Shown here one piece after another: positions 8,147 through 21,416 of a DNA stretch of 41,093 nucleotides. A program made the translations under genes and the position numbers. The DNA is from an uncultured bacterium (lineage in GTDB: Bacteria > Bacteroidota > Bacteroidia > Bacteroidales > CAIXTV01), in contig CAIXTV010000289.1 of NCBI GenBank assembly GCA_903922465.1, forward strand, positions 1 through 41,093, given 5' to 3'. The stretch's first letter is position 1, and each line of letters opens with the position of its first letter. Under the pieces are notes generated by a model. The model was given only the letters and a program-made list of their open reading frames with translations, was not told where the DNA came from and searched no databases.

Positions 8147-8476
8147 TTACTTTTCAACTTTAATTACCGTAGTATCTACCATCAAAAAAACATCTTCCTC
8201 TTCTCTTTTCATAAGATAAGTCTCACGGCCAAATTTCTCAAGATATCCAGGATCTTTTTGTAATCTTCTAATTTGAATACTATCTCGTGTAACTTCATTT
8301 TTATAGAAATCTCTCTCTTTTCTCAAGTCTTTCAACTCGCTAACTAAGTCATATTGAGAAATTAAATTGTTTTTATCCAGAAAGCCTACCCAAACCAAAA
8401 AAATCACACCTGCAATAAGATATCTATTATTGAAGCGTAATAATATGCTTTTTGTTTTTTGAAAATTGAACTTCAT
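8147..8476 (-). CDS. FtsB/DivIC-family septum formation initiator
   Basis: This 109-residue single-pass membrane protein has a cytoplasmic basic N-terminus (KFNFQKTKSILLRFNNR), one transmembrane helix at about residues 18-33 (YLIAGVIFLVWVGFLD) and a coiled coil at about 40-75 (LVSELKDLRKERDFYKNEV). It closes with the family's short C-terminal element DPGYLEKFGRETYLMKREEED. FtsB/DivIC proteins bridge early and late divisome proteins and help activate septal peptidoglycan synthesis. The gene begins 12 bases after the end of the protease gene on the same strand, so it may share that transcript, although the two functions are unrelated. It faces priA tail to tail. The 8021-8146 gap shows no convincing terminator. 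Confidence 0.88.
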   Translation of the reverse strand: MKFNFQKTKSILLRFNNRYLIAGVIFLVWVGFLDKNNLISQYDLVSELKDLRKERDFYKNEVTRDSIQIRRLQKDPGYLEKFGRETYLMKREEEDVFLMVDTTVIKVEK

Positions 8477-8488
8477 AAGGAGTATAGT

Positions 8489-10111
8489 TTAGTGCTTTTC
8501 AATTATTAGTTTTGAAGCGATCATATTGAAAAAGTCACATACTTTCACAATATATAAACCTTCTGGCAAATCATTTAAATTCAAATCCACAACAGCCTGA
8601 TTTGATAAATTAAAATCTTTATCGAAGCATATTTGGCCCAAAGAATTTATGAATTGTATATTTTGCTTCCCTCCTTTAAATGAAGGCATACCAATACTTA
8701 CAACCCCATTCGAAGGATTCGGGAAAATCGAAATTTTCTCCAACTCACTTTCTGATCCTTCAGAAATCGAAGCAGTAGGATCAAAACCTGTCTGAGTATT
8801 AAGCCCTGTATTTCCTGGATCTAACCAATCCTTCAAACGTTTAGTTGAGTCAGTCCCTTCCCATGAAACTGCAAAACGACCAAAATTATCATTGGTCAAA
8901 CTATTGCAAGAAGCCGTTCCTCCGTACAATTGACCAATTATCATATGACTCGAATTAAACAAAGGTGATCCCGATGAACCAGGCTCTGTTGTTCCGGTGT
9001 TCCACGAACCAATTTGCCAACATTCAGCTGTGGGGCTTCCCCAACTAACTGCTGTAGGAGCCTCATTATCGAAAGTAATTTTTTTAATATCCCCACTCGG
9101 ATGATGGATACAAACTGAAGAAGTTGGTGTTGTCCCAGTTTTATCCCATCCTGCATAGTAAACATAATATGAAACTGGAGGAGTTCCATTCATTTTAACG
9201 AGACAAAAATCAGAACCCGAATTACGCGCTTTTAAAGTACTCCCTGATGTGGCAACCTGATTATGTGCTGGTGTCGAACCCGGATTAGTGCAAGTTGAGC
9301 TTTGCCAATTGAACCAAAAAACCCAAGAAGAAAAATCATTACTCGCCGAGCAATGATTTGCTGTAAGTATATATGGTGTTCCATCATTGCTGGTATTATT
9401 TACTAAAGCACCTGTACAAAATCCACTCCCCCCAACTACTACCATACAAACCGAACGAATTTCAAACTCCCAACCGGCCGCTTGTGGACAAACTACATTT
9501 ACATTACAACTTCCCGACGAGCCAAACGATTTAGCATAAGAATAAACATCCCTATAGGCATGCGTTACCCTCCATAAATTCAATTCAGCAGAAAACGAAA
9601 CATCTTTGGGCTCATAATATTCCAAGGTAATCTCATCCCCTTGAATTAATTGAGTTGCAAAAAACTTGTCAATTTGATTATTCTCTTCAGTAAAAGCACC
9701 CAAAACATCAGTTTTTGAAGTATTATAAATATATAATTCCGCTCCGGGAGGCAAATGAAATCTATTAAATGTTAGATTAATACTAAACGCCTCTGCCGAT
9801 TTAATTTTTAACCTCCAAACTTTTGACCCATCTGCAAGCACTGACCAAACTCCAGAATTCGAAGGAGAAGAATCAACAAAAAGATTCTCACCAAACCGCC
9901 ATGGAATATCCTTTTGAGTGTCATTTATGGCATCCTCACCTAATAAACGGTCAATTTCCACAGAAGGCATCACCAAACTAGGAACTTCCTGATTTAATTG
10001 CGCTTGATTTTCACTCTTAAAGCTCGCAGGAATTCCAGTTTTGCTAATTTGAGAAAACGATAATGACGATATTATGACAACTAACAAAAGTGTGGTGCAG
10101 TATTTTTTCAT
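8489..10111 (-). CDS. Secreted trypsin-like serine protease with type A T9SS sorting domain
   Basis: The 540-residue protein begins with a Sec signal (MKKYCTTLLLVVIISSLSFSQ, cleavage near residue 20). A beta-rich pro-region of about 190 residues follows. The chymotrypsin-fold domain has a readable catalytic triad: His253 in LTANHC, Asp301 in SGSDFCLV, and Ser380 in EPGSSGSPLF. Several Cys in this part suggest disulfides, as in the Achromobacter lysyl-endopeptidase group. The last 80 or so residues (ISIFPNPSNG, LPEGLYIVKV, KLIIEKH) form a type A T9SS C-terminal sorting domain, so the protein should cross the outer membrane through T9SS and have this domain removed by PorU. Cleavage specificity is not evident. 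It is preceded on the same strand by an unknown membrane protein gene and followed closely by the ftsB-like gene. Confidence 0.92.
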   Translation of the reverse strand: MKKYCTTLLLVVIISSLSFSQISKTGIPASFKSENQAQLNQEVPSLVMPSVEIDRLLGEDAINDTQKDIPWRFGENLFVDSSPSNSGVWSVLADGSKVWRLKIKSAEAFSINLTFNRFHLPPGAELYIYNTSKTDVLGAFTEENNQIDKFFATQLIQGDEITLEYYEPKDVSFSAELNLWRVTHAYRDVYSYAKSFGSSGSCNVNVVCPQAAGWEFEIRSVCMVVVGGSGFCTGALVNNTSNDGTPYILTANHCSASNDFSSWVFWFNWQSSTCTNPGSTPAHNQVATSGSTLKARNSGSDFCLVKMNGTPPVSYYVYYAGWDKTGTTPTSSVCIHHPSGDIKKITFDNEAPTAVSWGSPTAECWQIGSWNTGTTEPGSSGSPLFNSSHMIIGQLYGGTASCNSLTNDNFGRFAVSWEGTDSTKRLKDWLDPGNTGLNTQTGFDPTASISEGSESELEKISIFPNPSNGVVSIGMPSFKGGKQNIQFINSLGQICFDKDFNLSNQAVVDLNLNDLPEGLYIVKVCDFFNMIASKLIIEKH

Positions 10112-13950: not shown

Positions 13951-14168
13951 GCATTAAGCCCAGCATCTCTTATTTCCCATCGCAAACCCCTCTGATTATT
14001 TGAGTTTTTAATTACGAAACTCTCCTATCAGCTTTCTATCCCATTCCAGCAACCCATTACCATCTAAATTTAGGGCTGTTTATTTTAAAAATTGAAATTC
14101 CAGAAAGCAAAAAATGCCTTTTCAGGATGTATTATTCAAAAAAACATTTCATTATTTTCGAAAAATAT

Positions 14169-14483
14169 TCCAGAACTTAAGTTGAACAATCCAAAACTTA
14201 AGTTGAATATTCCAGAACTTGAGTTGTATAATCCAAAACTTGTGTTGTATAATCCAAAACTAGAGTTGAATAATCCATTTCTTGAGTTGAACAATCCAAA
14301 ACTTGAGTTGAACAATCCAAAACTTGAGTTGAATATTCCAGAACTTGAGTTGAATATTCCAGAACTTGAGTTGAATATTCCAGAACTTGAGTTGTATAAT
14401 CCAAAACTTGAGTTGAACAATCCATTTCTTGCGTATTTCCATCCGATTCTTGCGTATTTCCATCCATTTCTTGCGATAAATAA
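14169..14483. repeat. Array of 15 contiguous 21-bp units with a near-palindromic core
   Basis: Fifteen units of exactly 21 bp follow one another without any indel or spacer (starts 14169, 14190, 14211 and so on to 14463). The typical unit is TCCARAACTTGAGTTG plus five variable bases (AACAA, AATAT or TATAA). Units 1 and 2 have the perfect palindrome AACTTAAGTT, units 3 and 7-12 have AACTTGAGTT with only the centre unpaired, and units 13-15 are degenerate (TCTTGCGTA type). The variable five bases are linked to what follows: AATAT is always followed by TCCAGA, the others by TCCAAA or TCCATT. Since 21 is divisible by three, several frames on both strands are open, but no start or promoter supports a gene. 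The array ends 35 bases before the -7 element of the XRE gene. Confidence 0.93.
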
Positions 14484-18411: not shown

Positions 18412-20145
18412 ATGATGAAAAAATTACTCAGTCTTATTTTAGGGCTTACAACTTTTAGTTTGTTTGCTCAATTACCGGTTAGTACAACTCCGGAAAACAA
18501 AAATGTTGTATTAGAAGAATTCACCGGAATTCATTGTGTATACTGTCCTCAAGGGCATGCAATTGCCAAAGCTGTTCAGGATGCAAATCCTAATGATGTT
18601 GTTTTAATTAACATTCACACTGGTAGCTATGCTACTCCAAGCGCAGGAGAACCTGATTTCAGGACTTCTTTTGGCACCGCAATTGAAACTCAATCTCAAC
18701 TTACAGGATATCCTGCAGGCACAGTAAACAGACATGTTTTCCCTAGCCCTGCTCCTATGACTGCAGGTGGTACTGCAATGGGAAGAGGAAGTTGGACAGC
18801 TTCAGCTGCTAGCATTTTGGCTCTACCTTCTTATGTTAATGTTGCTTTAGAAGCAAGTGTAGATGTTATTACCCGCGTATTAACCGTTAATGTTCAGGCT
18901 TATTATACCGGAACAAGCACTCAGGCTACAAATAAACTGAATGTTGGTATACTTCAAAATAACATTTTAGGACCTCAAACAGGTGGTAATGCTGGAAACC
19001 TCTACAACCACATGCATATGCTAAAACATTTAATCACTGGTCAATGGGGCGAAACTCTTGATACTACAACCACAGGAAAATTATATACAAGAACTTATAC
19101 TTATACAGTTCCTGCATCTTACACTAGTGTTCCTTGTGATATTTCAAATCTTGAAATTTTTGCTTTTATCACCGAAACTCAACAAGAAGTTATGACCGGA
19201 GCGAGATGTTTCCCAACTTATACTGGTATTACAAATACAACCGATGCTGCTCTTCTTTCTTCAACTGTTCCTCCAAGTGTTTGTGGAACTCAAGTTGCTC
19301 CTACTATTAAATTGCGCAACATGGGGATGAATCCTATGACAGCTGCTACTATTGAATATAAAGTAAATGGCGGAACAGTTTCTATTTACAACTGGTCTGG
19401 AAGTCTTACCAGTTATCAATCAGCTGGTGTTACTCTTCCTCTTATCACTTTCACACCTCAGGCCAGCAATACACTTGATGTTACAATAACTCAGGTTAAT
19501 GGCAGTACTGATCAAAATGTTGTTGACAATACTTCTTCTGCAACATTCGTTAAATCTCCTGTAGGTATTGGTTCAAGCTTTAATTTCGAATTAAAATGCG
19601 ATAATTATGGAAGTGAAACTACCTGGAAACTAAAAAATAGTGCTGGAACAGTTTTATATCAAGGGGGTCCTTATGCTGATGCTACTAACCCTCCTGCAAT
19701 TAACCAAACTTTTGTGTTAACTACATTAGATTGCTACACTCTTGAAATGTATGATGCTTATGGTGATGGAATTAATGCCGGATACGGTGTTGGTTATTAT
19801 AAACTTAAAAACCTTGCTGACAATTCAGTTCTCATCAATGGTTCCAATTTTATTTCCGACAAAGCAATTGATCCTTTACAAGTTACTGTGATTAATGGAC
19901 TTGACGAAAACACAAATGATCAAATCAACGTATATCCTAACCCCGCAAGTGATATTGTAAATATCACCAATGCTACTTATTCTGATATCATGTTATATGA
20001 TGTTTATGGAAAATTAATAATGGCTGATCAACATATCAGCAGCAATTATTCTTTAGACGTATCGAAAGTTGCAATTGGAAGCTACATCTTAAAGGTGTTG
20101 AACAAAGAAAAAACTAGCAGCATTAAAATTAATGTTGTTAGATAA
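18412..20145 (+). CDS. Omp28-related protein with thioredoxin-like CxxC and type A T9SS sorting domain
   Basis: This 577-residue protein has a Sec signal (KKLLSLILGLTTFSLFA, after a double Met). The Omp28-related domain starts near residue 30 (KNVVLEEFTGIHCVYCPQGHA). It carries a CVYC motif at the position of a thioredoxin active site and is followed by VVLINIHTGSYATPS and a conserved YPAGTVNRHVF segment with the cis-Pro-like P preceding AGTVNR. Residues about 285-390 look Ig-like (CGTQVAPTIKLRNMGM), and about 395-480 hold another beta domain (FNFELKCDNYGSETTWKLKN, YDAYGDGI). A type A sorting domain ends the protein (INVYPNPASDIVNI, IGSYILKVLNKEK). A role in surface adhesion or thiol chemistry is suggested by family knowledge but unproven here. 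Confidence 0.9.
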   Translation: MMKKLLSLILGLTTFSLFAQLPVSTTPENKNVVLEEFTGIHCVYCPQGHAIAKAVQDANPNDVVLINIHTGSYATPSAGEPDFRTSFGTAIETQSQLTGYPAGTVNRHVFPSPAPMTAGGTAMGRGSWTASAASILALPSYVNVALEASVDVITRVLTVNVQAYYTGTSTQATNKLNVGILQNNILGPQTGGNAGNLYNHMHMLKHLITGQWGETLDTTTTGKLYTRTYTYTVPASYTSVPCDISNLEIFAFITETQQEVMTGARCFPTYTGITNTTDAALLSSTVPPSVCGTQVAPTIKLRNMGMNPMTAATIEYKVNGGTVSIYNWSGSLTSYQSAGVTLPLITFTPQASNTLDVTITQVNGSTDQNVVDNTSSATFVKSPVGIGSSFNFELKCDNYGSETTWKLKNSAGTVLYQGGPYADATNPPAINQTFVLTTLDCYTLEMYDAYGDGINAGYGVGYYKLKNLADNSVLINGSNFISDKAIDPLQVTVINGLDENTNDQINVYPNPASDIVNITNATYSDIMLYDVYGKLIMADQHISSNYSLDVSKVAIGSYILKVLNKEKTSSIKINVVR

Positions 20146-20163
20146 TACCTCCTTTTAATTAAC

Positions 20164-20200
20164 AAAAAAGCCATGCAATGTATTGCAGGGCTTTTTTTTT
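20164..20200 (+). terminator. Rho-independent terminator after the Omp28-like gene
   Basis: AAAAAGCC-A-TGCAA pairs with TTGCA-G-GGCTTTTT around a TGTA loop, with one mismatch in the stem and a run of nine T at the end. Confidence 0.88.
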
Positions 20201-20296
20201 AGGCCAATGTAATATATAATTCCCCATCAGATATTTGTTTTTGCCATTTAAATTTTCCCTTCCCTACAGCATCTCATTCAAACAATTAAAATATTT

Positions 20297-20591
20297 TTGG
20301 GTTCTTAAAACCAAAATATTCAATCCCGAAAACATTTAGAGCAATCATTGAAACATTTGCTGCTGCCTCCGAAACGTTTGCTGCCATCACTAAAACATTT
20401 GTTTCCGTCATCGAAATATTTGTTTCCGTCACCAAAATATTTGTTTTCGTCATAGCAGCAATTGTTTCCGTCACCAAAATATTTGTTTTCGTCATAGCAG
20501 CATTTGCTGCCGCCATCGAAATATTTGTTTCCATCATAGCAGCAAATGTTTTCGGGACTGAATATTTTGCTTTAAGAATGGCAAAACCCAA
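20297..20591. mobile_element. Inverted-repeat-bounded element with an internal 21-bp array, MITE-like
   Basis: The left arm (20302-20337) and the reverse complement of the right arm (20544-20578) share TTCTTAAA, then after a 3/2-base difference AAAATATTCA, one mismatch, and TCCCGAAAACATTT. Outside these, TTGGGTT at 20297-20303 matches the reverse complement of 20585-20591 if eight extra bases in the right arm are skipped. Everything between the arms is a 21-bp tandem array. No transposase and no convincing target duplication are seen. The element lies in a 788-base gap between a terminator and ispF. It could be a non-autonomous mobile element or a large foldable structure formed by array expansion around an older hairpin. 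Confidence 0.6.
20330..20581. repeat. Array of 12 contiguous 21-bp units with AAAYRTTT core
   Basis: The core recurs at exact 21-bp steps: AAACATTT at 20330, 20351 and 20393, AAACGTTT at 20372, and AAATATTT at 20414, 20435, 20477 and 20519. Degenerate versions (CAGCAATT, CAGCATTT, CAGCAAAT, AATATTTT) stand at 20456, 20498, 20540 and 20561. Five of the cores are perfect palindromes. The rest of the unit is usually GTTTCCGTCACC or GCTGCCGCCATCG-like. A 42-bp higher-order unit is visible: the sequence starting at 20431 recurs at 20473 with almost no change over more than 30 bases. The minus strand stays open for 108 codons across it, but no promoter or composition supports a gene. Confidence 0.9.
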
Positions 20592-20933
20592 TACTAACAT
20601 CCTATAAAACATAAACTTAATGGGCCAAACTGAATGAGTAATAAAATAAATATGGCATTAGATGATCTTTATATACACTCATACAGCGCTATTAGAAAAC
20701 TGCCTATTATTTCTTGATTTATAGAAGTAAAATTGAATAATGCCTATTTCCCCAAATGAAAAACATATTGCTTTTAAAATCTAATAAAGACCAACAAAAC
20801 TTCGACAAGCTTAATAGTCTTGCGTAGTTTTCGAGAATGTCTAATCGATACCAACATAAGAAAACAGCTGATAACAAGAAGTAAATTAATATAAGAAAGC
20901 GGATGAAGGATGGATAAGTCTTACTTATCTATC
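20592..20933. other. Gene-free interval before ispF
   Basis: No coding frame, RNA gene or promoter is supported here. Two weak hairpins were seen: AAAACT/AGTTTT with inner CAAG/CTTG (20796-20831), and GATAAGT-CTT-ACTTATC (20913-20929), the latter just past the ispF stop on the minus strand. Neither is followed by a T-tract in the sense needed, so a terminator call is not made. Confidence 0.5.
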
Positions 20934-21416
20934 TCAGTTATTTTTAATGGCTAATAGCACCACACAATAGGCCGACACTCCTTCTTCGCGTCCAATAAAG
21001 CCCAGCTTTTCAGATGTTTTTGCCTTAATGGAAACCTGCCCTGGTAGGATGTGTAGTAGAGCGCTAATACTTTGTTGTATCTCAGGCACAAAAGGGCTCA
21101 ACTTGGGCATTTCGAGGCAAAGAGTTGTATCGAGATTAACGATTTCGAAATGATTTTCTGTAATTAAGTCGTAGACTTTAGTCAATAGAATTTTGCTATC
21201 GATTCCTTTATACTGAGGGTCGGTATCGGGAAACTGAGTTCCTATATCTCTAAGTCCCGATGCACCCAGCAAAGCGTCGCAAATAGCGTGTAACAAGACA
21301 TCGGCATCGGAGTGGCCCACAGCACCTTTTGCCGAAGGAATAAGTAAACCCCCTAACCAGAAATCGCGATTCAGTTCAAGTTTATGTGTATCGAAGCCAA
21401 ATCCAATTCTATACAT
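20934..21416 (-). CDS. ispF: 2-C-methyl-D-erythritol 2,4-cyclodiphosphate synthase
   Basis: IspF cyclises CDP-methylerythritol 2-phosphate to MEcPP with loss of CMP, the fifth step of the non-mevalonate isoprenoid pathway. The 160-residue length is typical. Metal ligands are readable: Asp9 and His11 in GFGFDTH, and His43 in GHSDADVLLHAICDALLGA. The cytidine/substrate loop is IGTQFPDTDPQYKGIDS and the C-terminal signature is KAKTSEKLGFIGREEGVSA. The gene starts five bases after the porV stop, so it is probably translated from the porU-porV transcript or from the porV promoter. The functional link between isoprenoid synthesis and T9SS is not obvious and may be positional only. Confidence 0.97.
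   Translation of the reverse strand: MYRIGFGFDTHKLELNRDFWLGGLLIPSAKGAVGHSDADVLLHAICDALLGASGLRDIGTQFPDTDPQYKGIDSKILLTKVYDLITENHFEIVNLDTTLCLEMPKLSPFVPEIQQSISALLHILPGQVSIKAKTSEKLGFIGREEGVSAYCVVLLAIKNN

Follow-up and report, generated by a model that had tools for sequence, protein, structure and literature searches.

The question raised by a 295-bp stretch at positions 20297..20591 of the window (the whole 41,093 nucleotides of DNA analysed here, from an uncultured Bacteroidales bacterium) is whether a 21-bp tandem array enclosed by inverted repeats is a non-autonomous mobile element or an array that grew inside a hairpin, the two options offered by a preliminary description of the sequence. The element exists at these coordinates, as determined by an inverted-repeat search, symmetry registers and a letter check, with its dyad centre at about 20440.5 and no strand assigned to it or to its parts, and the preliminary observation as a whole is partly confirmed. 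It sits between the 3′ ends of two convergent genes identified by domain search, a plus-strand gene (18412..20145) encoding an Omp28 protein with a type IX secretion C-terminal sorting domain and a minus-strand gene of the YgbB family (ispF, 20934..21416), beyond which lie porV and then a C25 peptidase gene. A hairpin followed by a T run (20160..20201, plus strand), detected by inverted-repeat search and absent from a simple terminator scan, lies outside the element and is likely the terminator of the left gene.

The left arm (20302..20337) and the right arm (20544..20578) had been described as near-perfect reverse complements, and this was borne out by their alignment, in which 33 of 36 columns were identical, with two mismatches and one gap. 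This alignment can be extended to 54 columns (20302-20355 vs. 20526-20578), and a longer inverted pair of 61 nt was found with 77% complementarity (20295-20355 and 20526-20586). A weaker symmetry continues from the arms into the array, and the sequence 20302-20578 matched its own reverse complement with 67% identity (E 9e-16). The extra TTGGGTT match noted earlier is also present, as outermost TTGGGTT at 20297..20303 and complementary AACCCAA at 20585..20591, though the left copy overlaps the left arm; the right copy is six bases away from the right arm. The inverted arms exceed chance: with 42 array bases counted, the border score of the element was 60, and with the array excluded it was 38, neither value being equalled by any of 2652 cross-paired array flanks, and under other settings 2 of 462 (63 bases inside) and 2 of 5402 (all periods 15-90) cross-pairings equalled its score. 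The other 21-bp array of the window (14164..14475), which has a different unit and no strand assigned, showed no unusual inverted border (score 19, equalled by 87 of 462 cross-pairings). A 315-nt stretch at the element was predicted to fold as RNA at -94.8 kcal/mol, compared to -52.8 ± 4.3 in 100 shuffles (z -9.8), and as DNA at -54.3 kcal/mol, compared to -28.6 ± 3.6 in shuffles (z -7.1).

The array itself consists of nine clear 21-bp units (20351..20539), with one diverged unit within each arm (20330..20350 and 20540..20560), so that the twelve units counted previously are too many, and the statement that all sequence between the arms is such a 12-unit array was overstated, the inter-arm space being 206 bp. 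Each clear unit comprises a 12-bp near-palindromic core (five bases, 2 nt and five bases) followed by a 9-bp spacer; left half-sites read AAACA, AAACG, AAATA or CAGCA, and right half-sites TGTTT or TGCTG. Head-to-tail imperfect units of tens of bp are those of a minisatellite. To delimit the array, a unit profile built on the nine interior rows was scored against 1489 background positions, and only the edge rows provide a fair test because the interior ones made the profile. Two rows within the arms, 20330 and 20540, scored as diverged units (1/1489 background positions equal in each case), row 20561 was borderline (19/1489) and row 20309 was no unit (82/1489), with 20302-20329 showing no recognisable unit; thus, by these scores, the edge units grade into the arms. 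The top background score in this assay was a unit-like 17-mer at 20231-20247, which lies beyond the left arm, has 88% similarity to two of the array units and is off the 21-bp phase.

When the array was slid along its own reverse complement, high complementarity was found at each 21-bp step; therefore, the dyad resides in the unit as well as in the arms. Complementarity was 0.46-0.62 at every one of the ten registers that had 45 pairs or more and satisfied c mod 21 = 1, compared to a mean of 0.26 over 199 registers, and the arm register (c = 40881) belongs to this same set, so that arms and units are in a common symmetry phase, with the common centre (20440.5) in the middle of a core. The dyad significance of this array varies with the test used, with p values of 0.083 for the 21-mer consensus, 0.27 for the 42-mer consensus, 0.03 and 0.06 in column permutation variants, and 0.02 under a stricter null in which 21 columns are permuted.

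Only one copy of the element was found in its own genome (5.02 Mb, 312 contigs, 97% complete) when searched at E 10. The remaining matches at E<=10 were at most 46 bp long, the best of them (C92:33532-33576; 46 bp, 80%, E 0.0014) spanning part of the right arm plus a unit and lying, by eye, within coding sequence; apart from it, matches to the arms were at most 31 bp with E of at least 0.77, in a draft of 312 contigs. No full copy was found at E 1e-4 in 294 other genomes (295 together with its own), which do not include family relatives, a cut-off that hides weaker partial relatives. The sole match outside its own genome is a stretch of G268 (43-44 bp, 83%) with a per-genome E of 8.2e-5, for which about 0.02 matches would be expected across all the genomes searched; it has no array, by eye resembles coding sequence, and is taken here as a chance likeness. 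Nor was a target-site duplication detected at the element, the best flanking direct repeat being 4 bp, equalled by 70% of random site pairs. The follow-up proposed in the preliminary description, a search for further copies and for target duplications, therefore left its first option, an undescribed non-autonomous element, unsupported. That description would have given up the mobile reading for a single copy with no empty sites anywhere and with arms that are just diverged array units; the copy is indeed single, and the inner halves of the arms are diverged units, but the outer halves are not clearly so. Regarding the locus in other organisms, ispF was found in 68 of 80 named PorV loci, and an Omp28 neighbour in none of the 80 (E 1e-8).

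The element belongs to a genome-wide class of arrays. In 1,280,572 bases sampled from this genome, comprising 87 sequences once joined and with the window among them, there were 96 tandem arrays of at least 80 bp. The period was close to two, four or six helical turns in 63 of them (49 per Mb), and in 54 of these 63 it was exactly 21n bp (30 of 21, 19 of 42 and 5 of 63). According to a greedy open-frame count, 59 of the 63 are intergenic. The best named relatives of the window's PorV, at 49-66% identity, come from MAGs whose titles mostly read Bacteroidales or Bacteroidetes, which is the basis for placing the window in Bacteroidales. In other Bacteroidota, 1.27 Mb from 80 named PorV loci contained 7 such arrays (5.5 per Mb), and 20 order relatives (0.24 Mb) contained none; the rate in the other sampled Bacteroidota is thus around one-tenth of that in the own genome, although this is only a rough control because each relative was sampled either near a single gene or from the start of a single contig. 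Five of the named loci carry a class array of at least 60 bp (L062, L076, L111, L121 and L130), and those of L062, L076 and L111 are not directly after ispF, as judged by ORF positions. When the 51 arrays of the first sample (7 from named loci and 44 own) were compared all-against-all, 38 had no relative in the set, some of which will gain relatives since whole-genome searches with two families gave more copies.

An excess of dyads was detected in this class, concentrated in the 42-bp period. Under the stricter 21-column null, 18 of 54 arrays reached p<=0.05, including 12 of the 19 with a 42-bp period, and arrays of 21-bp period by themselves showed little excess (5/30, mean z 0.59). A consensus test on 22 arrays gave 0/22 for the 21-mer and 5/22 for the 42-mer at the same threshold. 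Column permutation yielded 12/37 and 20/54 arrays at p<=0.05; where arrays have a 21-bp substructure, however, permutation across all 42 or 63 columns is too loose, and hence the value of 18/54 was relied on. Inversion of the core in place was also assayed by a strict test, which 5 of 37 arrays passed, four of them beyond all 60 permutations.

A survey of inverted borders in the 52 arrays with enough flank revealed that only two stand out, the element and L184, an array placed at C200:1857-1978 in this survey and otherwise delimited as C200:1838-1998, whose unit is unrelated to that of the element. L184 follows the plan of the element, less clearly. It consists of five rows with a GTATAC core (once GCATAC) inside arms GCAAACCTAAAAGTGATTTA.. 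whose ungapped alignment has 25 matching columns out of 27, its symmetry centre lies on the middle core, and it matched its own reverse complement with 76% identity over 132 bp (E 1.9e-20). Its predicted DNA fold was -29.2 kcal/mol, compared to -9.5 ± 2.25, and it is single copy, with one additional 47-bp match (E 0.008). With 42 array bases counted, its border score of 48 was equalled by 1 of 2652 cross-pairings, and with 21 bases inside, its score of 27 was equalled by 10 of 1806 and by 26 of 5402, whereas with the array excluded it fell below the top seven border scores; L184 is thus unremarkable once the array edges are left out, because its arms run into the array. Its dyad p values were 0.085, 0.085 and 0.055. 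Further high border scores were those of two 41-bp arrays of C150 (33, equalled by 2/2652) and of the 52-bp array L161 163-214 (37, equalled by 5/5402).

In our view, the element is probably a minisatellite whose near-palindromic 21-bp units multiplied by tandem duplication inside a pre-existing hairpin, the second option of the preliminary description, which gains support from the symmetry phase shared by arms and units and from L184, as well as from the dyad excess of the class (18 of 54 arrays) and its intergenic location (59 of 63). A short inverted repeat would have stalled replication at the start, and the hairpin centre, about two helical turns, would have been duplicated again and again through slippage or unequal exchange; since each duplicated unit is itself near-palindromic, such growth would not bring the array out of step with the outer arms. 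Template switching is known to make the arms of inverted repeats alike, and hairpins can arise or be preserved by it (PMC8604942, PMC8794818); switching of the polymerase between the arms may thus have kept the outer ones matched. Such switching at quasi-palindromes resembles the process proposed here in homogenising the arms, and can also invert the intervening sequence, but these sources describe it in coding DNA of yeast and in RNA genes rather than in tandem arrays (PMC8604942, PMC8794818). A cellular function would be unnecessary. Hairpin growth explains why arms and units share a phase, why the edges are graded, why both arrays are single copy and why a second case, L184, exists. Against it stand the facts that only 2 of the 52 usable arrays have such borders and that the border signal of L184 appears only with array edges counted, as do the dyad p values of the element, which shift with the test, the small dyad excess in arrays of 21-bp period and the low number of arrays (5 of 37) that passed the strict inversion test; the frequent exact 21n period is left unexplained by it, and both growth and template switching are proposed from a single genome.

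The nearest known systems are BrickBuilt and MITE464/PgRS of Porphyromonas gingivalis, MITEs with tandem arrays inside them (PMC4596501), so that the preliminary description was wrong to state that such arrays are absent from known MITEs. The element could accordingly be a BrickBuilt-like MITE with an internal minisatellite, now down to one copy. Both occur in Bacteroidales, are intergenic, and have imperfect head-to-tail units of about two helical turns (23 nt in BrickBuilt), inverted-repeat ends and long predicted stem-loops made by the repeats themselves (PMC4596501); terminal inverted repeats, as expected of a MITE, are present in the element, and this genome also has a dispersed array family with a common right-hand tail past the array. 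However, BrickBuilt is dispersed, being present at 19 sites of ATCC 33277, and has a leader, a tail and IS5-family-like ends of 12 nt, whereas the element has neither several dispersed copies nor a target-site duplication, its roughly 35-bp arms continue into the array and are partly made of its units, and no transposon with its ends was identified in the 312-contig draft; its 21-bp unit and TTGGGTT.. ends also differ from the 23-nt unit and GAGACCTTTGCA-type ends of BrickBuilt (Table 2 of PMC4596501). MITE464/PgRS likewise has an internal array, with a period of 41 nt that is near the 41-42-bp arrays of this genome, but it is multi-copy with IS5-family-like ends, a comparison made by period and description (PMC4596501). 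The MITE reading fails the copy-number and target-duplication tests, the search of the 294 other genomes having returned a single stretch of 44 bp, and we regard it as unlikely, while the resemblance in build to BrickBuilt persists (PMC4596501). In the open literature searched, no description of a comparable class of 21-bp arrays was found, BrickBuilt and PgRS being the nearest hits. That a recombinase acting on the arms flips the element as an invertible segment is hardly credible: an inverton has two arms around an asymmetric segment, and here the symmetry runs through the array instead of ending at the arms, the element lies between two gene 3′ ends, and promoter-like sites in 20100-20960 were not in excess (1 vs. 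4.4 expected). This holds even though the element, with its arms of some 35 bp separated by 206 bp, is of the size of Bacteroidales invertible promoters.

An open frame of 108 aa on the minus strand (20286..20612) spans the whole element and could encode a small protein with a seven-residue repeat, and its codon score (0.18 per codon) is within the range of 17 window genes (0.11-0.26), whose antisense frames scored -0.23 to -0.45. Yet the seven-codon repeat makes this score nearly one small sample repeated, the frame had no Pfam match at E 0.001, and 46 of 54 arrays have an open frame, compared to 42.0 expected after column permutation (z 1.6), so that open frames are ordinary in 21-bp arrays; the frame is probably no gene, and we consider a repeat protein very unlikely. 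A structural RNA or bidirectional transcription stop would suit the very stable predicted fold and the convergent setting between 18412-20145 and 20934-21416, but it appears just as improbable, as the left gene has its own hairpin and T run outside the element, and an Rfam search of the element gave 11 matches at E<=1, none above its gathering score. Arrays were also not clearly linked to gap orientation: a first comparison (20/31 vs. 106/420) was confounded by gap length, and among gaps with an array 22 of 42 were non-tandem (12 convergent, 10 divergent), vs. 76 of 210 array-free gaps of at least 200 bp (Fisher p 0.057). Finally, the 12-bp cores may be putative sites for a dimeric protein every two helical turns on one DNA face, with the arms as diverged sites, a binding platform that would act like plasmid iterons or an operator array. 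Plasmid iterons are direct repeats about two helical turns long that phase protein sites, and the element shares direct repeats of this length with them, but it is chromosomal, no initiator is shown for it, and the units differ between arrays. Cores built from interchangeable half-sites at a fixed 21-bp spacing, the exact 21n periods of 54 of the 63 class arrays and the dyad excess in 18 of 54 all agree with such a platform; nevertheless, as most arrays have unrelated units (38/51), one protein could hardly read all of them by sequence, and this reading seems doubtful to us.

The preference for 21n may have a wider meaning. Extrapolation of the 63 arrays in 1.28 Mb to 5.02 Mb gives about 250, and we put forward tentatively that this bacterium could keep some 250 intergenic arrays, with mostly unrelated units, periods of two or four exact turns and a dyad excess, which a turn-counting process or protein builds or maintains from hairpin-forming seeds, the element being an array with its seed hairpin still in place. 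If so, this process or protein would count helix turns and not read sequence, and a helix-phased process or protein may be the boldest reading left for the 21n preference. The exact preference together with mostly unrelated units separates repeat content from unit length, and thus makes a helix-phased origin testable. Minisatellites are mostly seen after growth, and two unrelated hairpin-nested arrays suggest how some may start. The 22-, 23- and 41-nt repeats known from P. gingivalis, as described in PMC4596501, may join a wider Bacteroidales pattern.

Several further arrays deserve mention. In the array at L134 1490-1960 (C92:19863-20313), an 11-bp core changes by eye from CCGAGTCTTGG to CCAAGACTCGG and then to GACGTC-centred cores, with the spacer direction and the 21-bp phase kept while the core inverts; the strict inversion test gave just one other, marginal pair in this array. 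The 42-bp units of L033 16342-16650 and L170 1-236 have a core GGATAGGCTTG and its near inverse GAAGCCTATCC at the same position of neighbouring 21-bp rows. A dispersed, MITE-like family (L139-L144, in C92, C141, C195, C216, C271 and C231) has the core AATAGTAT every 21 bp and a right-hand tail of about 110 bp past the array that is common to five of the six places; in L139, the tail contains the inverted pair TATAATTTGC..GCAAATTATA and ends with another AATAGTAT-like core. The genome also has two Y1_Tnp genes (PF01797; L206 and L207, C279:719-1057 and C60:13500-13838). In 11 of the 44 first-sample arrays there was no called gene before the contig end (L049, L052, L146, L148, L153, L157, L164, L170, L183 and L185 starts), which suggests that contigs of the draft tend to end at arrays and that their number may be underestimated.

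Among other genomes, L076 5895-6149 and L111 8164-8432 carry one common 21-bp array family; they come from the uncultured bacteria Kiruna_bin-04925 and AlinenLipids_bin-6511, which, with ispF identities of 66% and 65%, belong to the window's nearest named relatives. Another Bacteroidales MAG has a 41-bp array (L121 14440-14683) with the inverted pair CTTGCA..TGCAAG in its unit, a period like the 41 nt of PgRS, and two arrays with the 23-bp period of BrickBuilt lie 1.4 kb apart in an order relative (L203, G018; 8231-8298 and 9647-9736). Arrays of 7 bp were present as well, at L042 2628-2819 and L043 11966-12004 (ACTTAAC and AACTTAA), and, as 7 divides 21, such arrays may seed those of 21 bp.
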